Assembly: GCA_028869005.1 (NCBI GenBank)
Contig: JAGWTJ010000004.1
Span: 1-37,613 of the forward strand
Reading direction: 5' to 3'
DNA: 37,613 nt
Source: Burkholderiales bacterium
GTDB lineage: Bacteria; Pseudomonadota; Gammaproteobacteria; Burkholderiales; Burkholderiaceae_C
Part shown: piece after piece, positions 8,390-37,613 of the stretch
Numbering within the stretch: the stretch's first letter is position 1
Layout: every line of letters begins with the position of its first letter
Translations under genes and position numbers: made by a program
Notes under the pieces: generated by a model
Databases searched by the model: none
Seen by the model: the letters and a program-made list of their open reading frames with translations, nothing else
Told to the model about the DNA's origin: nothing

Positions 8390-9445
8390 ATGTCGAGCCC
8401 GATCGGCCGGCTGCGGCGCGTCGAGAGTGGCGACGCCGCCGCAGCGGCCGATGCCGACGCGCGGCCCTGGGTCTCGATGCTGCTCATCGCCTACCGCCAG
8501 GCCGGCACCGTCGGCGAGGCGGTGGCCGGCGCGCTCGCGCAGACCTACTCGCCGCTCGAGATCATCGTCTCCGACGACGCGTCGGACGACGCGACCTGGG
8601 ACGCGATCGAGGCCGCGCTGGCCGGCTACAAGGGGCCGCACCGCATCGTGCGCAACCGCAATGCGCGCAACCTCGGCATCGGCGCGCACCTGTCGAAACT
8701 GGCGGCGATAGCGCGCGGCGAGCTGCTGTTCGTCACCGCCGGCGACGACGTCTCGCGCCCCGAACGCTGCGAACGCACGGTGCAGGCCTGGCTCGCACAC
8801 GGCCGTCGCCCCGATCTGATCGCCAGTCCGCTGCTCGATATCGACGCCCGCGGCGAGGCGCGCGGCCTGCTGCGGCCGAGCGACCTCGGCGTCTATCGAA
8901 GCGCGGCCGCATGGATCGCGAAGCCGCCCTACGTGATCGGCGCCGGCCAGGCGTGGACGCGCCGCCTCGTCGAGCGCTTCGGTCCGCTGCCCGAGGGCAC
9001 GGTCGCCGAGGATCTGGTGATGGTGTTCCGCGCCGTCGTCAGCGGCGGGGCGATCACGCTGGCCGAGCCGCTGGTAGCGTACCGGCGCGGCGGCCTGTCG
9101 CGTCGGCGCCGCGCGCTGCACGCGAGAGAGGTGCGGCACAAGCTGCTGGCCAACGCGCGCCACGCGCTGGTCGAGCTGCCCTGCCTGCTGCGCGATGCCG
9201 AGCGCGCCGGCGTGCGCGACCAGGTGGCGCCCACGCTCGAACGGCAGCTCGCGCGCGAGCGCCACGTCGCGGCGCAGTTCGACGCGTCGGCCAGCTTGCC
9301 GGCGCGCTGCGGTCGGCTGCTCGGCGACCGTGCCGTGCCGGCCGCGACACGGTTGCGCGTGTTCGTCTACGCGGCGCTGCCCTGGCTGCTGGCGCCCGGG
9401 TTCGCGCTCAAGCGCCTGGCATTGGGCCGCCGCGAACCGGAGTGA
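8390..9445 (+). CDS. Glycosyltransferase family 2
   Basis: WVSMLLIAYRQAGTVGEAVAGALAQTYSPLEIIVSDDASDDATWDAI...GELLFVTAGDDVSRPERCERTVQAW. Confidence 0.83.
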   Translation: MSSPIGRLRRVESGDAAAAADADARPWVSMLLIAYRQAGTVGEAVAGALAQTYSPLEIIVSDDASDDATWDAIEAALAGYKGPHRIVRNRNARNLGIGAHLSKLAAIARGELLFVTAGDDVSRPERCERTVQAWLAHGRRPDLIASPLLDIDARGEARGLLRPSDLGVYRSAAAWIAKPPYVIGAGQAWTRRLVERFGPLPEGTVAEDLVMVFRAVVSGGAITLAEPLVAYRRGGLSRRRRALHAREVRHKLLANARHALVELPCLLRDAERAGVRDQVAPTLERQLARERHVAAQFDASASLPARCGRLLGDRAVPAATRLRVFVYAALPWLLAPGFALKRLALGRREPE

Positions 9446-9449
9446 GGGG

Positions 9450-10358
9450 CTAAGGCGCGAGCCTGCGCATCAGGCTCGACGTGTCGTCGCGGCCGCCGCC
9501 GGCGGCCTGCAGCTCGGCGTAGAACTGGTCCACCAGCGCCGTCACCGGCAGCGGCGCGCCGTTGCGCCGCGCCTCGTCGAGCACGAGGCCGAGGTCCTTG
9601 CGCATCCAGTCGACGGCGAAGCCGAAGTCGAACTTGCCGTCGAGCATCGTGCGGCCGCGGTTGTCCATCTGCCAGCTCTGCGCCGCGCCCTTGCCGATCA
9701 CGTCGAGCACGAGCGGCATGTCCAGGCCGGCGCGCCGGCCGAAGGCGAGCGCCTCGGCCAGCGCCTGCACCATGCCGGCGATCGCCACCTGGTTGACCAT
9801 CTTGGCCAGTTGCCCGGCACCGCTGGCGCCGACCCGCGTGACCGCACGCGCGTAGTTCATCGCCAGCGGCCGCATCGCCTCGAAAGGCGCGGCGTCGCCG
9901 CCGCACATCACCGTGAGCGCGCCGTTGACGGCGCCGGCCTGGCCGCCGGAGACCGGCGCGTCGACGAAGTGCAGTCCGCGTGCGCCGGCGGCGGCGTGCA
10001 GCTCGCGTGCGACGGCCGCCGACGCGGTGGTGTGGTCGACGAAGACGGCGCCGCTCGCCATGCCGGCGAAGGCGCCGTCGGCACCCAGCACGATGCTGCG
10101 CAGGTCGTCGTCGTTGCCGACGCAGGCGAACACGAACTCGGCACCGCCGTGCGCCGCCGCGGCCGCGCGCGGCGTGGCGGCGCTGTCGCCGCCGTAGACG
10201 TCGACCCAGGCCCGGGCCTTGTCGGCACTGCGGTTGTAGACGCAGACCTGATGGCCGGCGCGCGCCAGGTGGCCGGCCATCGGATGGCCCATCACGCCCA
10301 GGCCGATGAAGGCGACGCGGCGCGCGGGAAGGGGTTCGTAGGAGCGGGGGCTGTTCAT
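9450..10358 (-). CDS. NAD(P)-dependent oxidoreductase, 3-hydroxyisobutyrate dehydrogenase / tartronate semialdehyde reductase family
   Basis: RRVAFIGLGVMGHPMAGHLARAGHQVCVYNRSADKARAW...FVDAPVSGGQAGAVNGALTVMCGG...GASGAGQLAKMVNQVAIAGMVQALAEALAFG. Confidence 0.9.
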   Translation of the reverse strand: MNSPRSYEPLPARRVAFIGLGVMGHPMAGHLARAGHQVCVYNRSADKARAWVDVYGGDSAATPRAAAAAHGGAEFVFACVGNDDDLRSIVLGADGAFAGMASGAVFVDHTTASAAVARELHAAAGARGLHFVDAPVSGGQAGAVNGALTVMCGGDAAPFEAMRPLAMNYARAVTRVGASGAGQLAKMVNQVAIAGMVQALAEALAFGRRAGLDMPLVLDVIGKGAAQSWQMDNRGRTMLDGKFDFGFAVDWMRKDLGLVLDEARRNGAPLPVTALVDQFYAELQAAGGGRDDTSSLMRRLAP

Positions 10359-10406
10359 GCCCCCGATGGTGCCACGGCGCGGTGGCGCGCCGGCCGCGAC
10401 GACGCG

Positions 10407-11543
10407 TCAGACGATCTTCATCGCCTCGGTGCCCGCCGCCAGGTCCGGGTTGCGCGCGCGCACGCTCTGCAGCTTGATCGTCAGGCGCAGGTCGTTCACC
10501 GAATCGGCGTTGCGCAGGGCATCCTCGTAGGTGATCAGACGCTGCTCGTAGAGGTCGAACAGCGCCTGGTCGAAGGTCTGCATGCCGAGCTCGCGGCTGC
10601 GCTTCATCAGGTCCTTGATCTCGGCGACCTCGCCCTTGAAGATGAGGTCGCCGACGAGCGGGGTGTTGATCATGATCTCCACCGCCGCCACACGCCCGCG
10701 GCCCTGCTCGCGCGGCATCAGGCGCTGGCTGACCAGCGCCTTCAGGTTGAGCGACAGGTCCATCAGCAACTGCTGGCGCCGCTCCTCGGGGAAGAAGTTG
10801 ATGATGCGGTCCAGCGCCTGGTTGGCACTGTTGGCGTGCAGCGTGGCCATGCACAGGTGGCCGGTCTCGGCGAAGGCGACGGCGTTTTCCATCGTCTCGC
10901 GGTCGCGGATCTCGCCCATCAGGATCACGTCCGGCGCCTGGCGCAGCGTGTTCTTCAGCGCGATCGCCCAGCCGTCGGTGTCGATGCCGATCTCGCGCTG
11001 CGTGACGATGCAGTTCTTGTGCGGGTGCACGAACTCCACCGGATCCTCGACGGTGATGATGTGGCCGAAGCTGTTCTCGTTGCGCCAATCGACCATCGCC
11101 GCCAGCGACGTCGTCTTGCCCGAGCCGGTGGCGCCGACGAAGATGACCAGGCCGCGCTTGGTCATCGCCACGTCCTCGAGGATCGGCGGCAGCCCGAGAC
11201 CCTTGATCGTCGGCAGCGTCTGCGGGATGGTGCGGAACACGAGTCCGACCTGGCCCTGCTGCATGAAGGCGTTGACGCGAAAGCGCCCGATGCCCTGCGG
11301 GCTGACCGCGAAGTTGCACTCCTTGGTGCGCTCGAACTCGGCCGCCTGCTTGTCGTTCATGACGGCGCGCGCCAGCGCGATGGTGTGCAGGCCGCTCAGC
11401 GGCTGCGGGCTGACCTTGGTGATCTTGCCGTCGACCTTGATCGCCGGCGGGAAGTCGGCAGTGAGGAAGAGGTCCGAGCCGTTGCGCGAGACGAGCAGGC
11501 GCAGCAGGTCATTGACGAATTTGGAGGCCTGGTCGCGTTCCAT
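10407..11543 (-). CDS. pilU: Type IV pilus retraction ATPase-like protein PilU
   Basis: MERDQASKFVNDLLRLLVSRNGSDLFLTADFPPAIKVDGKI...VGATGSGKTTSLAAMVDWRNENSFGHIITVEDPVEFVHPHKNCIVTQREIGIDT...GEIRDRETMENAVAFAETGHL. Confidence 0.93.
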   Translation of the reverse strand: MERDQASKFVNDLLRLLVSRNGSDLFLTADFPPAIKVDGKITKVSPQPLSGLHTIALARAVMNDKQAAEFERTKECNFAVSPQGIGRFRVNAFMQQGQVGLVFRTIPQTLPTIKGLGLPPILEDVAMTKRGLVIFVGATGSGKTTSLAAMVDWRNENSFGHIITVEDPVEFVHPHKNCIVTQREIGIDTDGWAIALKNTLRQAPDVILMGEIRDRETMENAVAFAETGHLCMATLHANSANQALDRIINFFPEERRQQLLMDLSLNLKALVSQRLMPREQGRGRVAAVEIMINTPLVGDLIFKGEVAEIKDLMKRSRELGMQTFDQALFDLYEQRLITYEDALRNADSVNDLRLTIKLQSVRARNPDLAAGTEAMKIV

Positions 11544-11685
11544 GATGTCATCTCCTCTGCGTAGGCGCAGGCACCGCCATCCATCCACCACGGGCCTGGC
11601 CAGCAGCCGCGGTGGATCCGGCTCTGCCGGTCCACTCGCGGCGCCCCCTGGGGGGAGGCGCCGAAGGCGCTTCGGGGGGGACCAT

Positions 11686-12729
11686 TTATCCCGGGAAGTT
11701 CTCGGGGATCTTGGCCTTGCCACGCGCCTCGGCCGGGCTCACCAGATTGCGGCGCACGAGATCGGACAGGTTCTGGTCGAGCGTCTGCATGCCCAGGCTC
11801 TGGCCGGTCTGGATGCTCGAATACATCTGCGCGATCTTGTTCTCGCGGATCAGGTTCTTGATGGCGCTGTTGGCCAGCATGATCTCGTGCGCGGCCACGC
11901 GCCCCGAGCCGTCCTTCAGCTTGCACAGCGTCTGCGAGATCACCGCCACCAGCGACTCGGAGAGCATGGCGCGCACCATCTCCTTCTCGGCCGCCGGAAA
12001 GACGTCGACCACGCGGTCGACCGTCTTGGCCGCGCTCGAGGTGTGCAGCGTGCCGAACACGAGGTGACCGGTCTCGGCGGCAGTGAGCGCGAGGCGGATG
12101 GTTTCGAGGTCGCGCATCTCGCCCACCAGGATCGCATCGGGATCCTCGCGCAGCGCCGAGCGCAGCGCGTTCGAGAAGGAGAGCGTGTGCGGCCCGACCT
12201 CGCGCTGGTTGATCAGGCACTTCTTGCTCTCGTGCACGAACTCGATCGGGTCTTCCACCGTCAGCACGTGGCCGTACTCGCTCTCGTTGAGGTGGTTGAC
12301 CATCGCCGCCAGCGTCGTGCTCTTGCCCGAGCCGGTGGGGCCGGTGACGAGCACCAGGCCGCGCGGCTTGAGCGCGAGTTCGGCGAACACCTTGGGCGTG
12401 CCGAGCTGCTCGAGCGTGAGGATCTTGCTCGGGATCGTGCGGAACACGGCGCCGGCGCCGCGGTTCTGGTTGAAGGCGTTGACGCGAAAGCGCGCCAGCC
12501 CCTGGATCTCGAAGCTGAAGTCGCACTCGAGCGTGTCCTCGTAGTGCTTGCGCTGGGCGTCGTTCATGATGTCGTACACCATGCCGTGGACCGTCTTGTG
12601 GTCCAGCGCTTCGACGTTGATGCGGCGCACGTCGCCGTGCACCCGGATCATCGGCGGCAGTCCGGCCGACAGGTGCAGGTCGGAGGCCTTGTTCTTGACC
12701 GAGAAGGCCAGCAGTTGCGTGATGTCCAT
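11686..12729 (-). CDS. pilT: Type IV pilus retraction ATPase PilT
   Basis: MDITQLLAFSVKNKASDLHLSAGLPPMIRVHGDVRRINVEALDH...VTGPTGSGKSTTLAAMVNHLNESEYGHVLTVEDPIEFVHESKKCLINQREVGPHT. Confidence 0.96.
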   Translation of the reverse strand: MDITQLLAFSVKNKASDLHLSAGLPPMIRVHGDVRRINVEALDHKTVHGMVYDIMNDAQRKHYEDTLECDFSFEIQGLARFRVNAFNQNRGAGAVFRTIPSKILTLEQLGTPKVFAELALKPRGLVLVTGPTGSGKSTTLAAMVNHLNESEYGHVLTVEDPIEFVHESKKCLINQREVGPHTLSFSNALRSALREDPDAILVGEMRDLETIRLALTAAETGHLVFGTLHTSSAAKTVDRVVDVFPAAEKEMVRAMLSESLVAVISQTLCKLKDGSGRVAAHEIMLANSAIKNLIRENKIAQMYSSIQTGQSLGMQTLDQNLSDLVRRNLVSPAEARGKAKIPENFPG

Positions 12730-12845
12730 GCAGATCCGGTGTGAGGCGCCGCGCCCGATTCACTGCGGCCGTCGCCGCGCGGCCCGTCCGGTGCGCAGCC
12801 AGGCGGCCGCGCGCGCCGCCGGGATCCCGCTAAGCTCGGGGCATT

Positions 12846-13595
12846 ATGGGCAGCATCGGAAGCAACCTGCAAGAAGTGAAGCGGCGCATCGCCGCCGCCT
12901 GCGCCCTAGCCGGTCGCGATGCCAACATCTTCACGCGCGCGCCGGCGCCGGGCGCCTTCGACGCGCCGCCGTGCGGCGTCACGCTGCTGGCGGTGAGCAA
13001 GACCTGGCCCGCGGCCGCGCTGCGCGAGGCCCACGCCGCCGGCCAGCAGGCCTTCGGCGAGAACCAGGTGCAGGAGGCGCTGGCCAAGATCGAGGCGCTG
13101 GCCGACCTGCGCGCGCGGCTGCAGTGGCATCTGATCGGCCCGCTGCAGAGCAACAAGACGCGCGCCGTCGCCGAGCAGTTCGACTGGGTGCACTCGGTCG
13201 ACCGGCTCAAGATCGCCGAGCGCCTCGCCGAGCAGCGCCCGGCCGGTCTGCCGCCGCTCGATCTGTGCCTGCAGGTCAACATCAGCGGCGAGGCGAGCAA
13301 GAGCGGTGTGGCGCCGGCCGACCTGCGTGCGCTGGCGCACGCGGTGGTCGCGCTGCCCGCCGAGCGCGTACGCCTGCGTGGCCTGATGGCCATCCCGGCG
13401 CCGGCCACCGGTCGCGACGCGCAGCGCGCGCCGCACCGCGAACTCGCCGCGCTGCTGGCGGTATTGCGCGGCGACGGGCTGGCGCTGGACACGCTGTCGA
13501 TGGGCATGAGCGACGACCTCGAGGCCGCCGTGCTCGAAGGCGCCACCGTCGTGCGCGTGGGCAGCGCGATCTTCGGCGGCCGGCCGCGGGCGTGA
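12846..13595 (+). CDS. YggS/PROSC-family PLP-homeostasis protein
   Basis: VTLLAVSKTWPAAALREAHAAGQQAFGENQVQEALAKIEAL...LQWHLIGPLQSNKTRAVAEQFDWVHSVDRLKIAERL...LSMGMSDDLEAAVLEGATVVRVGSAIFG. Confidence 0.95.
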   Translation: MGSIGSNLQEVKRRIAAACALAGRDANIFTRAPAPGAFDAPPCGVTLLAVSKTWPAAALREAHAAGQQAFGENQVQEALAKIEALADLRARLQWHLIGPLQSNKTRAVAEQFDWVHSVDRLKIAERLAEQRPAGLPPLDLCLQVNISGEASKSGVAPADLRALAHAVVALPAERVRLRGLMAIPAPATGRDAQRAPHRELAALLAVLRGDGLALDTLSMGMSDDLEAAVLEGATVVRVGSAIFGGRPRA

Positions 13596-13611
13596 GCGCG
13601 CCGCCGCCGCG

Positions 13612-14592
13612 TCAGTTCAGGTACATGCCCAGATAGCGCCGGCCGCGGCTCACCGCCTCGGCATCGGGACACATCGCGAACCACTCGACGAGCTGCTTGC
13701 GCGCCGCCTCGCGCTGCTCGCCCTTGTCGCGCAGCACGACCTCGAGCAACTGCTCGAAGGCCGCGTCGAAGTCGCCGTCGTGCGCGAGCAGCGCCGCCAG
13801 GCCGAAGCGGGCTTCGAAATCCTTCGGGTCGGCGGCGATGCGCGCGCGCAGTTGCACCGGGTCGCCGGCCGGCTTGTGGCGCGCCATCTCGATGCGCTTG
13901 CCGAGCGCCTCGTGGCGCTCGCCGCGCGCGTCGGCCCGGACGCGATCGAGCAGGCCGGCCGCGGCGTCGAGCTCGCCGCGCGCGATGCGACGCTCGGCCA
14001 GATCGTGCAGCGTCTCGGCATGCGCCGGGTCGAGCGCCAGCGCCTCCTCCAGCAACTGCTCGGACTCTTCGGCGTGACCCTGCTCGATCGCAACGGCCGC
14101 GGCCTTGCGCAGTTCCTCGAGCGGCGAGCCCTGCGGCTCGAACTGGCCGAGGTGCTTGTCGAGGAACTGGCGGATCTGTCCTTCGGGCAGTGCGCCGACG
14201 AACTGGTCCACCGGCTGCCCGCCGGCGAACAGCACCACCAGCGGGATGCTGCGGATGCGCAGCGCCGCCGACAGGTTGGGCGCTTCGTCGGTGTTGATCT
14301 TGGCCAGGATGAAGCGCCCACCGTAGTCCTGGGCGAGCTTTTCCAGGGTCGGCCCGAGCGAGCGGCACGGCCCGCACCACGGTGCCCAGCAGTCGAGTAG
14401 CACCGGCACGTCGAGCGAACGCTCGAGCACCAGGCGCTCGAAGTCGGCTTCGGTGACGTCGATCACCCGCTCGGCGGGTGCGGGCGGCATGGCGGCGCCG
14501 GGTGCGACGGCCGTGGCGGCGCCCGTGGTGGCGGTCTGGGCGGCGGCGTACGGATCGTGCGCGGCGAAGGGATTGCGGGGGGAGGCACTCAT
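13612..14592 (-). CDS. Thioredoxin-TPR protein, CnoX/YbbN-like co-chaperone
   Basis: VIDVTEADFERLVLERSLDVPVLLDCWAPWCGPCRSLGPTLEKLAQDYGGRFILAKINTDEAPNLSAALRIRSIPLVVLFAGGQPVDQFVGALPE... followed by TPR-like C-terminal half. Confidence 0.9.
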   Translation of the reverse strand: MSASPRNPFAAHDPYAAAQTATTGAATAVAPGAAMPPAPAERVIDVTEADFERLVLERSLDVPVLLDCWAPWCGPCRSLGPTLEKLAQDYGGRFILAKINTDEAPNLSAALRIRSIPLVVLFAGGQPVDQFVGALPEGQIRQFLDKHLGQFEPQGSPLEELRKAAAVAIEQGHAEESEQLLEEALALDPAHAETLHDLAERRIARGELDAAAGLLDRVRADARGERHEALGKRIEMARHKPAGDPVQLRARIAADPKDFEARFGLAALLAHDGDFDAAFEQLLEVVLRDKGEQREAARKQLVEWFAMCPDAEAVSRGRRYLGMYLN

Positions 14593-32075: not shown

Positions 32076-35000
32076 CTATGTGGAAGGGGCGGGGGGTGCA
32101 GGCGACGCAGGCGGTGCAGGCGGGCTGCGCGTCGCGTCGGCGGCGAAGATCTGCGCCAGCAGCGCGTCGTTGAAGTGCAGACCGCGCAGCGCAGCGGGCG
32201 GCAGCGGGATCGGCGGGCCCTCGATCGGTACCGGCTGGATCGCCGGCGGATCGTCGTCGTGCCCGTGCTTGCGCGCCAGCGCGTAGTCGATCTCCTTACC
32301 CACCCAGACCGAGTCGCGCGCCGCGCTCGACCAGAACAGCATGAAGACGTCGCAGTCGTCGATCTCGGTGTACAGGCGCCGCTCCCAGCGCTCGCCCGGG
32401 TCGAGGTCGAGCACGTCCTGGAACACCGTGAGGCCGGCGATCTTGAAGGCCTGCACGCGGCGCAGCACCTCGGCGCGGTCCTTCGACGCGTAGGACACGA
32501 AGGCGCGCCGGTAGCGCACGCCCTGCGTCTGGCGCACGGCGGCCGGCTCGGCGCTGCTGCCGGCGGCGGCCACCGCGACCTGGAAACGCAGGGTGCCGAC
32601 CGGCGCACCGTCGATCGCGAAGCGCAGGCGTCCGGTGACGTTGCCGGCGGCGTCGCCCGCGGCGTCGGCCGGCACCGCGACCTCGAACTGCACATTGGCG
32701 GCGCGGCTCCTCCAGACCACCCAGGCGTCGGCTTCGGCGACGACGAAGCCGGGCATCTCGAGATGCAGATCGACGCGCGCCCCCGGTGCGAGGTCCAGCG
32801 GCAGCGACCAGGTCTGGCGACGCCCGGCCGTGGCGTCGGCCTGGCGCGCGCGCGCGTCGACCGCGTCGGCTTCGGGCGGCGGGTATAGGTAGACCTGCAC
32901 GATGAAGCTGGCGGCGCGTGCCACGCGCGGCGGGCAGAAGACGGCCGCGTCCACCGGCTCGGCTGCGGGCGTCGGCAGGGCGCGCGTCGGCGCGGTGGAG
33001 TTCGACGGGATCGACGGCGGCAGCGCCGCCGCGGCCGGTGCCGCGGCCGCAAGCTCCACAGGTGCGGCGCCCGCCGCTTCCGGCGCCGGTGGTGGCGGTG
33101 GCGGTGGCGGTGGCGGTGGCGGTGGCGGTGGCGGGGAGGGTGAGGGTGAGGGTGAGGGTGGCGGTGGCGATGCCGCTTCCGATGCCGCGTCAGCGGGCGC
33201 CACACGATCGTCGCGACCACGCGACTCGTTAGTCGGCTCCGCGATGAGCGCGAACGCCGGCGGCCTGGCGCGTTGGACATGGCCGCCCGCACCGGCGCGC
33301 TCAGCGGCCGCCGCGGCGTCTTCGCGGCCCGCATAGCCGGCGAGCTGCCGCCACAGCGTCGCGGCGGCAGCGCGCTCGGCGTCATCGCCGTGTCGCATCC
33401 AGGCGCCGAGCACGAGATCGGCCTGATCGGCCACCGACGCCCACCAGGCGGCGTTGTCGAGCCGCCCATGCAGGTCGGCCCAGGCCGCAGCCAGCACGGC
33501 CTGCTGCGACGCCAGGCGCGCAGCGGCCAGCGCGTCGTACAGCGCGAGATCTGCGCCGCCGACCTGGCTCCAGAAGTCGGGGTCGCGCTGCGACTTGTCG
33601 GCCAGGCTCGCCCGCGCCAGGCTGCGCACCGACGCCGCCAGCCGCAGCGGCTTGCCGGCAAGGCGCTGCAGCACGAGTTCGAGCGCAAGGCAGTTGAGCG
33701 CGGGATAGAAGACGTCGGCGACGCCGGCGCGGCGGGCCAGACGTAGCGCGTGCCGGTAGGCGTCGAGCGCGGCGCCTAGCGCGCGCCGCTCGGCGGCCGC
33801 GTCACCGGCCTGGCGTTCGATCAGCGCCAGCCGCTTGTGCGCCGAGCCGAGCAGGTTGAAACGCTCGGCGGTGGGCCGGCGCGCCGCGAGCGCCCGCAGG
33901 TCGGCGAGCGCCCTGGCGATGGCACGGTCGGCTTCGCGCGAACGCGCCGCGTGCCCGCCCGTCGCCGCGCCGGCCTGCGCGGTGGCCTGCGCCGCAGCCT
34001 GCGCCCAGGCGCGGCGCGCACGCAGGTTGGCCAGCATTTCCTCGGCACGCATCGAAGCCGAGCCGTCGTTGGCCTGCACGGCGCGTTCCAGCCAGGCGAT
34101 GGCGCGCTCGCAGCCGTCGGACGTCTCCCAGGCGACGGCGCGGCCGCCGTCGTCGGCCACCGCGGCCCAAGCGACGCCGAAGGCCTCGGCGACGGCGCCA
34201 ATCGCATCCCAGGCCGCATCGAAGCGTGCCTCGAGCTGGCGCAGCTTCGGTCCCTGTTCGGCGGCGCGCTTGCCCATGAAGCGCGACTGCACCGCCAGCG
34301 TCTCGAGCGCCAGCGCCAGCGCCGCCGGCGAGGCGATGGCGGCGAACTCGTCGCCCTCGGTGCGCGGCGCCTGCGCGTCGGCGCCGGCACGGCGAAACAC
34401 CCAGTTCGGATCGCCGTAGCACTGGTAGGCGGCCCAGGTCTTGCCCTGCGGCGCGCTGCGCCAGCAGGCTTCGCGCGCGCGGCTGACGGCATCGATGAAG
34501 CGCGCATGGCGCTGCGTCAGCTCGGCGTAGAAGGTGCGCGCGAAGACCAGCGCCGGCGTGTCGTCGACGGCCCAGCCGGCGGCCACCACGCAGCGCACGC
34601 CGATGGCGATGAGCGCATCGGCGATGTTCGCCGCGAACGCCGACGGGTCGCCGCCGCCGAGCACCTGCGCGCTGCCGAACGCCCCCAGATGGCAGCAGTT
34701 GAGGAAGACCAGCTCGGGCACCGTGTCCATCGCGCCGATCTCGGTGGCGCCGAGGAAGTGTCCGTTGCTGAGCACGACGCCGCGACCGCCGTCCTGCACC
34801 GACTCGCCGTGGCCGGCGATGTGCACGATGCGCCACGGCCGCTCGAGCAGGCCGCCGACCACGGTCGCCGCGTCCGGCTCGTCGACGAGCGCAAGCACGC
34901 GCTCGTAGGGCAGGCCGCCCTGCTCGGTGAGCGCGTCCTGCACGGCCAGCGCTTCGTCGCGCGCCGCCGGCAGCGGGCCGTAGCCGGAGCCGGCGTCGAC

Positions 35001-37613
35001 CTTGGGCGCGCCGACCAGCAGCACGTGGGCGTCGGCGTCGGCGTCGTGCGGCGCGGTGCGGAACACCGTCTTGCGCAGCCGCCGCATGAGGCGGGCGCGA
35101 ATCGCCCAGGGCCGCAGGTCGGCGCCGCCGGCGTCGGTACCGGCATCGAGCAGCTCCCAGGGGATGGCCGCGGTGGAGGCGTCGAGGTCGAGCACCATGC
35201 GGTCGGTACCGCCGAGGAAGGCGCGCATCTCGAGCGGCACCAGCAGCTGGTACAGCGTACGGCCGATCGCGGCGTCGCCGGCGCGATCGGTGGCGGCCTT
35301 CAGCACCAGCTCCCGCACCAGGCCGATCTGCGTGGGCTGTTGGCGCAGCTCGCTGCGCGCGCGCCGGCTGTCGAGCGCGAACTCGATCACCCCGGCGTCG
35401 CGCGTGACGGCGGTGATGAGGTCGTAGTCGACGCCGCGGTAGCCGCTGACGAGCTGCTGGCGCAGCGGCCCGGTGCCGCTGGCGATGCGCGCGTCCAGCC
35501 GGAACGATTCGGGGCCGGACGCCGCCAGCACCTGCAGGCCCTGCCAGGCCTCGGTGGCGCGGTCCAGGTACAGCTCGACCAGCGTGAGCCGCTCGACCAG
35601 CGGCCAGCCGATCGCGGCCAGCCGCAGGTTGGCCTCGCGCACGCCGCGCGCCACGGCACGCGCCGATGCGCCGGCCGACACGCCCAGGCCACCGCTGCCG
35701 AGCAGCGTCGCGGCCAGCCCGGTGGTCGCCGCGGCCGCGCGCTCCTCGGTCAGGCGCTGCGCCCAACCGAGCACCGCCTGGCATACGCCGGCCACCAGTT
35801 CGGACTCGCGCAGCCCACCTTCGTCGCCCAGGCCGAGCACGATCACGGCACGCGGCCGCGGCAGCGCCCACGGGTTGGCCGGGTCGGGCCAGCCGTTGAC
35901 GAAAGCGCGGTGTGCGCCGCGCTCTTCGGGGTAGATGCCGGCGCCGAGCGCGGCCGACATCGAGCCGCCGAGCAGCCGGTCGACCACCGCCTCGGTGCCG
36001 GTGAGCTCGGAGCTGCGATAGTGGCCGACGAGCAGCGGCTGCGCGACGAAGGCGAGGTTGCCGTTGAGCACCGCGATCTGCAGCGCCGCACCGGCGGCCG
36101 GCGCCGCAGCGGCGCGCGCTTCGGGCGCGGCGCCGAGCACCGTGTCCTCGCCGCGTGGCGGCTGCACCGGCACGCTCTGGCGCGACGGCCGGCTGCGCAA
36201 CAGCGCGGCCGTCGCGACCGGCGCGGACAGCGTCCCGCGCGTCGCCTCGACGCGCTCGAGGCGCGCCGTGGTGCCGCTGGCGAGCAGCTCGACGTAGGCA
36301 TCGAACGCACCCGTCGTGCTCGGCAGGCTGCCGTGCTCGGCGTCGACGCTCCAGGTCGGAACACCGGGCAGCAGCGCGCTGGCGCGCGCGACGCGGCCGT
36401 CGCCGTCGCCCGATTCGAGGTAGACGAAGCCTTCGGGCGCGCTGTCGTCGTAGCCCACCGGCGTCGCCTTGGCCTGGCCGACGACGAGCACGATGCGATC
36501 GGCAAACGACGGCAGGTCCTGTGCGCGCTGTGCGTCGAGCCGGCGCCGCAGCGCCACCGCGGCGTCGAGCACCGCCTGCGGCGGCACGCCCCAGCGGTAG
36601 GCCGCGTTCATCGCTTCGCCGGCCGAGCGATGCCACCAGTTCAGCTGTTGCGTGTGCGCGTAGTCGTCCTCGGCCAGCCGGCGCCAGGTGGCCTCCTGGT
36701 CGAGGCGGTGCGCGGGGTCGGTGCTGCTGGTGAGATCGGCCTGCAACTGGATGAAGCCGGGCATCGCCGCCATCAGGTCGCGCGCATGCCGGTCGCGCAG
36801 CGGCGAGCCGAACGCGGCCAGCAGGTTGCCGAAGGTGTCGTCGCCCGACAGCACCTGCATCGGCGCGTACGAGCCGCCGTTGGGCGTGCCGAGCATCAGC
36901 ACGCGCGCGCCGGGTTGCGCCAGCATGCGCTGCCAGATGGCGGGGCACTCGAGCGCGAGCGAGCGCGCCAGCAGGCCGCCCATCGAGTGCGCGACGATGC
37001 GCACCGGCTGTCCGCTCGCCTTGCGCGCGTCAAGCGCGGCGTCGATCTCCTGCGCGAAGCGCCGCGCCTCCTCCTCGATCGGCCGACGCCAGTCGAAGGC
37101 GAATGGCCGCACCTCATGCGTGGCGCCGAGGCGGTCGATGAGCTTGCCGTAGATCAGGTCGATCGGCCCGTCCGGCGCGACGCCGTCGGCGCCGTTCGGC
37201 TGGTAGGCCAGCGCGTCGAGGTTGGCGAACAGGTTGATGCTCAGCCAGACGCGCCGGCCATCCTGCTGCAGGTTGCTGCCGAGGATGCCGGGCAGCACGA
37301 ACACCGCCGGCAGCGTGGGATCGCGCTCCAGGCCGCGCGCGCCGGAGGCATCCTCGCCGGCCCAGGACAGCGGCCCGATCGGCGCGAAGCCTGCCGGCGG
37401 CTGGGGCTGCACCAGCGCGTCGACCACGGCGTCGGCGGTGGCGGGGTTGGCGAAGTAGGCGAAATGCGTGGTCTTGCCGCCGCGGTCCAGCAGGAAGCTC
37501 GCGCCGCCGGCGCGCGGCGCGCCGGCATACATCGAGCGCGTCTGCACGACGATGTCGTTGTCGGTCCAGTAGTAGGCGTCGGCCAGCAGCGTCTTGACCC
37601 AGCTCGCCACCGA
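32076..37613 (-). CDS. Giant multidomain protein: alpha/beta hydrolase(s) - macro/M17N-like - CHAT protease - TPR-like - Pro/Ser hinge - beta-sandwich - TIR (5' end beyond window)
   Basis: Single uninterrupted minus-strand frame of at least 1844 codons to the window edge; PAVFVLPGILGSNL / AHSMGGLLARSLAL (hydrolase), HIAGHGE and VFLNCCHLG (CHAT His/Cys), RAFVSYASKDRAEVLRRVQAFKIAGLTVFQDVLDLDPGERWERRLYTEIDDCDVFMLFWSSAARDSVWVGKEIDYAL (TIR). Confidence 0.9.
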   Translation of the reverse strand, partial: SVASWVKTLLADAYYWTDNDIVVQTRSMYAGAPRAGGASFLLDRGGKTTHFAYFANPATADAVVDALVQPQPPAGFAPIGPLSWAGEDASGARGLERDPTLPAVFVLPGILGSNLQQDGRRVWLSINLFANLDALAYQPNGADGVAPDGPIDLIYGKLIDRLGATHEVRPFAFDWRRPIEEEARRFAQEIDAALDARKASGQPVRIVAHSMGGLLARSLALECPAIWQRMLAQPGARVLMLGTPNGGSYAPMQVLSGDDTFGNLLAAFGSPLRDRHARDLMAAMPGFIQLQADLTSSTDPAHRLDQEATWRRLAEDDYAHTQQLNWWHRSAGEAMNAAYRWGVPPQAVLDAAVALRRRLDAQRAQDLPSFADRIVLVVGQAKATPVGYDDSAPEGFVYLESGDGDGRVARASALLPGVPTWSVDAEHGSLPSTTGAFDAYVELLASGTTARLERVEATRGTLSAPVATAALLRSRPSRQSVPVQPPRGEDTVLGAAPEARAAAAPAAGAALQIAVLNGNLAFVAQPLLVGHYRSSELTGTEAVVDRLLGGSMSAALGAGIYPEERGAHRAFVNGWPDPANPWALPRPRAVIVLGLGDEGGLRESELVAGVCQAVLGWAQRLTEERAAAATTGLAATLLGSGGLGVSAGASARAVARGVREANLRLAAIGWPLVERLTLVELYLDRATEAWQGLQVLAASGPESFRLDARIASGTGPLRQQLVSGYRGVDYDLITAVTRDAGVIEFALDSRRARSELRQQPTQIGLVRELVLKAATDRAGDAAIGRTLYQLLVPLEMRAFLGGTDRMVLDLDASTAAIPWELLDAGTDAGGADLRPWAIRARLMRRLRKTVFRTAPHDADADAHVLLVGAPKVDAGSGYGPLPAARDEALAVQDALTEQGGLPYERVLALVDEPDAATVVGGLLERPWRIVHIAGHGESVQDGGRGVVLSNGHFLGATEIGAMDTVPELVFLNCCHLGAFGSAQVLGGGDPSAFAANIADALIAIGVRCVVAAGWAVDDTPALVFARTFYAELTQRHARFIDAVSRAREACWRSAPQGKTWAAYQCYGDPNWVFRRAGADAQAPRTEGDEFAAIASPAALALALETLAVQSRFMGKRAAEQGPKLRQLEARFDAAWDAIGAVAEAFGVAWAAVADDGGRAVAWETSDGCERAIAWLERAVQANDGSASMRAEEMLANLRARRAWAQAAAQATAQAGAATGGHAARSREADRAIARALADLRALAARRPTAERFNLLGSAHKRLALIERQAGDAAAERRALGAALDAYRHALRLARRAGVADVFYPALNCLALELVLQRLAGKPLRLAASVRSLARASLADKSQRDPDFWSQVGGADLALYDALAAARLASQQAVLAAAWADLHGRLDNAAWWASVADQADLVLGAWMRHGDDAERAAAATLWRQLAGYAGREDAAAAAERAGAGGHVQRARPPAFALIAEPTNESRGRDDRVAPADAASEAASPPPPSPSPSPSPPPPPPPPPPPPPPPPAPEAAGAAPVELAAAAPAAAALPPSIPSNSTAPTRALPTPAAEPVDAAVFCPPRVARAASFIVQVYLYPPPEADAVDARARQADATAGRRQTWSLPLDLAPGARVDLHLEMPGFVVAEADAWVVWRSRAANVQFEVAVPADAAGDAAGNVTGRLRFAIDGAPVGTLRFQVAVAAAGSSAEPAAVRQTQGVRYRRAFVSYASKDRAEVLRRVQAFKIAGLTVFQDVLDLDPGERWERRLYTEIDDCDVFMLFWSSAARDSVWVGKEIDYALARKHGHDDDPPAIQPVPIEGPPIPLPPAALRGLHFNDALLAQIFAADATRSPPAPPASPAPPAPST
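32140..32515 (-). other. Domain: TIR within the giant ORF
   Basis: RAFVSYASKD (betaA, about 32480-32510), DVFMLFWSSAARDSVWVGKEIDYAL (candidate catalytic Glu in VGKEID, about 32281-32320). Confidence 0.88.
33091..33168. repeat. Hexanucleotide tandem repeat, 13 units: (GGTGGC)7, GGGGAG, (GGTGAG)3, (GGTGGC)2
   Basis: Read directly; in-frame on minus strand, encodes Pro16-type tract and (Ser-Pro)n hinge. Confidence 0.95.
34390..35300 (-). other. Domain: CHAT (caspase-like) protease within the giant ORF
   Basis: MVLDLDASTAAIPWELLD...RIVHIAGHGESVQDGGRGVVLSNGHFLGATEIGAMDTVPELVFLNCCHLGAFGS...ALIAIGVRCVVAAGWAVDDTPALVFARTFYAEL...CYGDPNWVF: canonical CHAT layout with His and Cys catalytic motifs. Confidence 0.9.
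35550..36090 (-). other. Domain: M17 N-terminal / macrodomain-like region within the giant ORF
   Basis: LQIAVLNGNLAFVAQPLLVGHYRSSELTGTEAVVDRLLGGSMSAALGAGIYPEERG...PRAVIVLGLGDEGGLRESELVAGVCQAVLGWA resembles leucyl-aminopeptidase N-terminal domains; tentative. Confidence 0.45.
36290..37311 (-). other. Domain: LCAT-like alpha/beta hydrolase (lipase/esterase) within the giant ORF
   Basis: VFVLPGILGSNL (about 37270-37305), nucleophile motif HSMGG (36975-36989), candidate His in VDAEHGSLPST (about 36320-36350); boundaries approximate. Confidence 0.8.

Follow-up and report, generated by a model that had tools for sequence, protein, structure and literature searches.

A TIR domain fused to a conserved hydrolase–macro–CHAT–TPR-S scaffold in a Burkholderiales bacterium: a candidate NAD-signal-controlled protease–lipase

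The window, which is the whole stretch of 37,613 nucleotides analysed here, encodes a real, conserved multi-enzyme protein in which a TIR domain has been fused once to a conserved hydrolase–hydrolase–macro–CHAT–TPR-S scaffold. From the N-terminus, the order of the domains is DUF7379 hydrolase, LCAT-like hydrolase, macro-fold domain, CHAT, TPR-S, Pro-rich linker, β-sandwich and TIR. About 60 relatives share the common scaffold, and the TIR is fused to it only in the window and in L002. The protein is most likely an NAD-signal-controlled protease–lipase death protein onto which the signal maker has been fused here. That it works as a single-chain, NAD-signal-operated cell-death protein, probably directed against phages, is in our judgement about evenly balanced. 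The original prediction was right that the modules exist, but rather than a random collection of toxins they form a conserved scaffold with one TIR fusion.

The single long minus-strand frame that had been proposed is real: it spans 32076–37613 with 1845 codons and a stop, and is open to the contig end. The original description has to be corrected, however, in that the gene is truncated there. The window is an entire contig (G000:C417) of a 3.66-Mb genome in 453 contigs, and the missing start of the gene, 406 codons, was found at the end of contig C43, from 5826 (ATG) to 7043, where it encodes an additional α/β-hydrolase (hydrolase 1). Judged from L002, a gap of roughly 40 codons separates the two parts. 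The full protein is estimated at ~2,280 aa; L002, the closest relative, has 2278 aa and is about 75% identical. The fusion did not arise during assembly, since L002, an independent MAG, carries it at full length and with a different Pro-rich linker. Residue numbers (P0001) count along the translation of the window frame, and all features below lie on its minus strand. On C43, an RlpA/SPOR-like lipoprotein gene of the same orientation ends 160 bp ahead of this start codon. A secreted metacaspase with intact GHG/DAC motifs is encoded on the same contig about 4 kb upstream of the gene's start (L032 292–1779).

All the domains that had been named from the sequence are present, with conserved catalytic residues. 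The window holds only the C-terminal end of hydrolase 1, of the DUF7379 type (37404–37613), with the invariant Asp18/Asp20 and His50; its nucleophile (HSRGG) is encoded on C43. Hydrolase 1 also has an IHGT motif. Hydrolase 2 (residues ~100–460; 36234–37316) is the α/β-hydrolase that had been recognised by its AHSMGG motif, and its sequence places it among LCAT/PLA2G15-like enzymes. Pfam LCAT (PF02450) matches residues 167–262 at E 1e-6, above the cut-off, and a match to PLA2G15 was also obtained; Ser210 sits in HSMGG, and the predicted triad is completed by Asp405 and His427. The Ser, Asp and His of both hydrolases are invariant in the 37 aligned proteins (37/37 for hydrolase 2; 36 proteins for the hydrolase 1 segment that the window lacks).

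Hydrolase 2 and the macro-CHAT part are joined by a linker whose length and sequence vary. Its one constant element is an RPS[RH]-type motif, which was retained in 34/34 clade members checked and reads RSRPSR in the window (residues 473–478; 36180–36197). Metacaspases and separases prefer basic residues, and RSRPSR is therefore a natural candidate for Arg-directed cleavage, although it may just as well serve for docking. The earlier idea that CHAT releases the lipase by autocleavage thereby gains a concrete candidate site. The tripeptide TRG, which may be a second processing motif, is enriched about tenfold in the N-terminal ~200 residues of the scaffold proteins (L032 5826–6500 in the window's genome). 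It occurs 38 times against 3.3 expected in the N-terminal low-complexity stretch of 32 proteins, an expectation controlled for composition only by shuffling, with the sequences being related and hence not independent.

The macro-fold domain (related to Peptidase_M17_N; residues ~509–705; 35499–36089), which carries a conserved GSGGxG loop, had been overlooked in the original prediction. An AlphaFold2 model of residues 500–1432, built with 26 sequences, gave a mean pLDDT of 82, with values mostly between 75 and 97 across the macro region (model residues 11–210). In Foldseek searches, the modelled domain matched macroH2A1.1, TTHA0132 and YmdB with a probability of 1.00 and TM-scores (target) of 0.66–0.78, which identifies it as a predicted macro fold; further matches were leucyl aminopeptidases. 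By sequence, the region gave only weak Peptidase_M17_N matches in 9/15 members (best E 0.0032), and its profile had no meaningful match among PDB sequences. The CHAT domain (residues 783–1068; 34410–35267) is a predicted caspase-like protease with both of the catalytic motifs that had been noted. Pfam CHAT (PF12770) matches at E 3e-28, and His935 and Cys973/Cys974 are unchanged in 37/37 aligned proteins.

The long helical region behind CHAT, described before as TPR-like, divides into a TPR-S domain by its Pfam match (PF20308; residues 1169–1311; 33681–34109) and a remaining helical TPR array in the AlphaFold2 model (residues 1312–1430; 33324–33680). The TPR-S match has an E value of 4e-7 and scores 31.1 bits against a curated cut-off of 27.6; the domain was matched in 25/26 members at E ≤ 0.5. 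TPR-S proteins (PF20308) were reportedly treated by Burroughs and Aravind (2020, J Bacteriol). The domain is shared with these proteins, but here it is embedded in a ~2,280-aa protein together with hydrolases, macro domain and CHAT. Close unfused homologues stop about 20–40 residues past the aligned part.

The C-terminus beyond the TPR array, which comprises linker, β-sandwich and TIR, is present only in the window and L002. The Pro/Ser hinge and the β-rich segment of the original prediction correspond to a Ser/Pro-rich linker at the fusion junction (residues 1431–1555; 32949–33323) and to a β-sandwich (residues 1560–1690; 32544–32936), which looks immunoglobulin-like in a low-confidence model and gave only generic β-sandwich matches in fold searches with that model. 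The β-sandwich travels with TIRs of this type, as in a TIR-β-TIR protein on an Allocoleopsis plasmid, adjoining caspase-nSTAND-WD40 genes, and in an FHA-β-TIR protein of another member of the family (G144). The TIR itself (TIR_2; residues 1703–1816; 32166–32507) is matched by PF13676 over residues 1705–1816 at E 2e-18, and the low-confidence β-TIR model (pLDDT 59) gave fold matches to the TIRs of SARM1 and SPARTA. The conserved Glu that had been pointed out is the putative catalytic Glu1774 (WVGKE), which aligns with the Glu that follows the W of AbTIR and is retained in L002 and L016. With a Glu in the WxxxE region, the TIR has the sequence signature of an NADase and probably breaks down NAD+. 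Between the window and L002, dN/dS is <1 for every domain, with the TIR ranking among the best-conserved parts (86% identical, against 80–82% for hydrolase 2, macro and CHAT).

The association of TIR with the scaffold is recurrent and statistically clear outside the fusion as well. A TIR profile was run over the 59 loci of the scaffold and its matches were confirmed by Pfam; eight TIR genes were seen in 0.75 Mb of flank where 0.13 were expected. The expectation comes from the density of TIR_2 in the family, about 79 matches over 101 genomes whose mean size was assumed to be 4.4 Mb. A two-gene form occurs in G115 (L057), where the TIR gene has a 4-bp ATGA overlap with the scaffold gene. L016 has one TIR gene about 60 bp downstream of the scaffold and a ParA-TIR-PASTA gene; G449 has two near the scaffold, one of them TIR-SLOG; and single cases were found in G384 (TIR-TPR), G239 and L029 (SIR2-TIR). 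Two of the eight carry some ascertainment bias, because L016 was fetched by a match running into its TIR gene. In L029, the SIR2-TIR gene is followed by an nSTAND1-WD40 gene (8542–13643), and the pair, close to the scaffold, is likely a defence system of its own. A plasmid of Rhizobium leguminosarum carries a 936-aa macro-CHAT-TPR-S gene flanked by two TIR-nSTAND1-WD40 genes; this locus was taken from a ranking of plasmids by similarity, was not selected for TIR and lies outside the count of eight. The TIR-linked cases belong to different branches of the tree, and the two fused proteins form one clade. At the level of genomes, TIR was present in 12/18 scaffold-bearing genomes versus 20/83 without the scaffold, a co-occurrence to which genome size may contribute in part. 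No TIR was found within the sequence examined at about 50 of the 59 loci, and 6/18 scaffold-bearing genomes had no TIR_2 match; TIR is thus not obligatory. TIR as an obligatory part was rejected also as almost all homologues are without it in cis.

Caspase genes are likewise recurrent beside the scaffold. At 13/59 loci, spanning both deep branches, a Peptidase_C14 (metacaspase) gene in the same orientation lies close to the scaffold gene, directly abuts it or overlaps it. Most of these metacaspases have GHG and D[CS]CH motifs. These genes are L102 13997–14857, L103 13669–14676, L114 1642–2718, L115 13242–14396, L101 5224–6075, L112 4029–5378, L060 4946–5800, L099 103–927, L016 7189–8712, L054 3743–4894, L053 12176–13567, L107 6963–7916 and L057 15397–16314, and the metacaspase is a probable partner of the scaffold. 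About ten Rubrivivax loci have a related secreted caspase-like gene upstream without recognisable catalytic His/Cys motifs (L024 5361–7724, with counterparts in L004, L008, L003, L028, L021, L012, L011, L026 and L029), which is possibly a degenerate partner.

The domains, catalytic residues, macro fold, linker motif and the linkage to TIR and caspase genes rest on sequence or model; the course of events that we propose from them, with its trigger, messenger, cleavage steps and part in antiviral defence, is inferred. In this lineage, the β-sandwich-TIR module, found elsewhere in separate genes, became joined to the C-terminus of the scaffold, which is spread through the Burkholderiales. Upon a trigger, the TIR domains would associate and cleave NAD+ to an ADP-ribose-type product, which would be bound by the macro domain and/or TPR-S. 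CHAT would thereby be switched on to cleave in cis or in trans, for example at the RSRPSR linker; in operonic relatives, the adjacent metacaspase might be cleaved by CHAT too. The hydrolases, once freed, would attack membrane lipid, and the cell would stop growing or die. A stronger version, in which the messenger made by the TIR acts on the macro/TPR-S part of the same or a neighbouring copy, CHAT cuts its own RSRPSR and two lipases are released, with the scaffold of other lineages connected to a metacaspase and a TIR encoded apart from it, would make these proteins a new family of death systems built on lipase zymogens that a protease activates; this we offer only tentatively. If the proposed course is right, it would link TIR-made NAD-derived signals, caspase-like proteases and lipases, until now separate themes, put a macro-fold receptor immediately next to a CHAT protease, give DUF7379 and the TPR-S domain a function, and provide a bacterial example of lipase zymogens released by a caspase-like enzyme. 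As the relatives offer unfused, operonic and fused forms, simple mutants would suffice to test the order of signal maker, receptor, protease and lipase.

It is improbable, to our mind, that the TIR and the lipases are independent toxins that are released by CHAT autocleavage to deplete NAD+ and to damage the membrane in parallel. Such a scheme would agree with the conserved catalytic residues in all modules and with the cleavable-looking sequences, namely the Pro/Ser linker before β-TIR and RSRPSR before macro-CHAT. However, the macro fold and TPR-S beside CHAT fit the reading of an NAD-derived signal, and it is therefore more likely that the TIR is an upstream signal maker for the protease than a parallel NAD-depleting toxin. 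Moreover, the scaffold can do without the TIR, and the TIR genes that accompany it are many and unrelated to one another, a pattern that input modules would be expected to show.

For a TIR-made signal that controls a protease, the best reading by analogy is a logic like that of type IV Thoeris in one chain. PMC12847820, citing Rousset et al. 2025, describes type IV Thoeris as a system in which TIR-made N7-cADPR activates a caspase-like protease. The likeness lies in the genetic coupling of a TIR to a caspase-superfamily protease and in a proposed TIR product acting on the protease; here, in contrast, one polypeptide is found, with two lipase-like hydrolases, a macro fold and TPR-S, and the protease is CHAT. 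Membership in two-gene type IV Thoeris was rejected for the window, where TIR and protease are one chain and where the CHAT part matched none of the Thoeris models in PADLOC and NCBIfam, but a two-gene form with scaffold and separate TIR occurs in G115/L057. PMC12847820 also reports that TM-macro ThsA of type II Thoeris responds to TIR-made His-ADPR. ThsA likewise pairs a macro-fold domain, as the putative receptor of the TIR product, with a TIR, but the effector here is CHAT with the hydrolases and not a transmembrane domain, and the macro relation here is by fold, the sequence being nearer Peptidase_M17_N. Among PDB folds, the macro-CHAT-TPR model comes nearest to Csx29, the TPR-CHAT protease of Craspase in type III-E CRISPR (8eey_B, E 1.9e-5), although the two superpose poorly overall (rmsd 16.7, 10% identity), the TPR follows CHAT here, and no CRISPR effector was noted near the scaffold. 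In MoxR-vWA/VMAP ternary conflict systems, a caspase-like domain and an α/β-hydrolase are paired effectors (PMC7159879), an association that is seen here too; no vWA, MoxR or VMAP components were met among the annotated scaffold neighbours.

The original prediction had looked to a defence-island context. No such context was found in the window, where the neighbours are RlmJ, TGT, QueA-like, RecG, UbiA, RF3 and P5CR genes, and in most Rubrivivax relatives; most chromosomal scaffold copies sit among housekeeping genes. Synteny is partly conserved, as a gene of the short-chain dehydrogenase type, from one 21-member cluster, follows most Rubrivivax copies, usually directly downstream, and many Rubrivivax loci have RlpA/SPOR or the degenerate secreted caspase upstream. 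This conserved neighbourhood and the absence of the scaffold from phages would suit a lineage-specific housekeeping or stress protein, that is, a vertically kept envelope/lipid stress protease–lipase of Rubrivivax-type bacteria in which the TIR fusion is incidental tuning. We consider this doubtful, since the scaffold is patchy (about 7–18% of sampled genomes: about 18/101 in the family and about 20/300 in the order; rare elsewhere in the phylum) and is also carried on plasmids of Azotobacter, Paracoccus, Rhizobium and Ensifer, one copy adjoining a type I restriction-modification/Fic cluster. In several genomes, on plasmids and at some chromosomal loci, the neighbours moreover include metacaspase, TIR, SIR2-TIR, TIR-SLOG and TIR-nSTAND1-WD40 genes. 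A TIR that serves only as a non-enzymatic oligomerisation or adaptor domain, clustering the protein for activation of CHAT by proximity, would suit the exchange of unrelated TIRs and the fact that animal TIR domains often act by assembly, but it is very unlikely given the retained catalytic-type Glu and the purifying selection on the TIR. Carriage by phages or viruses was rejected, as no scaffold relative was found in phage records and the β-TIR part had no match in viral contigs.

Several further genes were observed next to the scaffold. On Paracoccus plasmids, a membrane protein of 1,080–1,094 aa is encoded directly upstream (L118 4030–7314, L121 4098–7343); one of the two has a solute-binding-like segment, and the protein is a possible sensor partner in both. 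A GH108 lysozyme-like gene lies directly after the scaffold, between it and the TIR gene, in two distant genomes, the Rhizobium plasmid (L119 12797–13414) and G449 (L106 7647–8315). A 200-aa SLOG-like gene with a weak YAcAr match was found near the scaffold in L115 (16361–17089), L119 (18934–19536), L114 (192–812), L112 (425–1081) and L104 (16529–17185). In L053 (13203–15206) and others, the SLOG-like part is fused to a TPR-S protein whose N-terminal domain is a different one, unmatched in Pfam.
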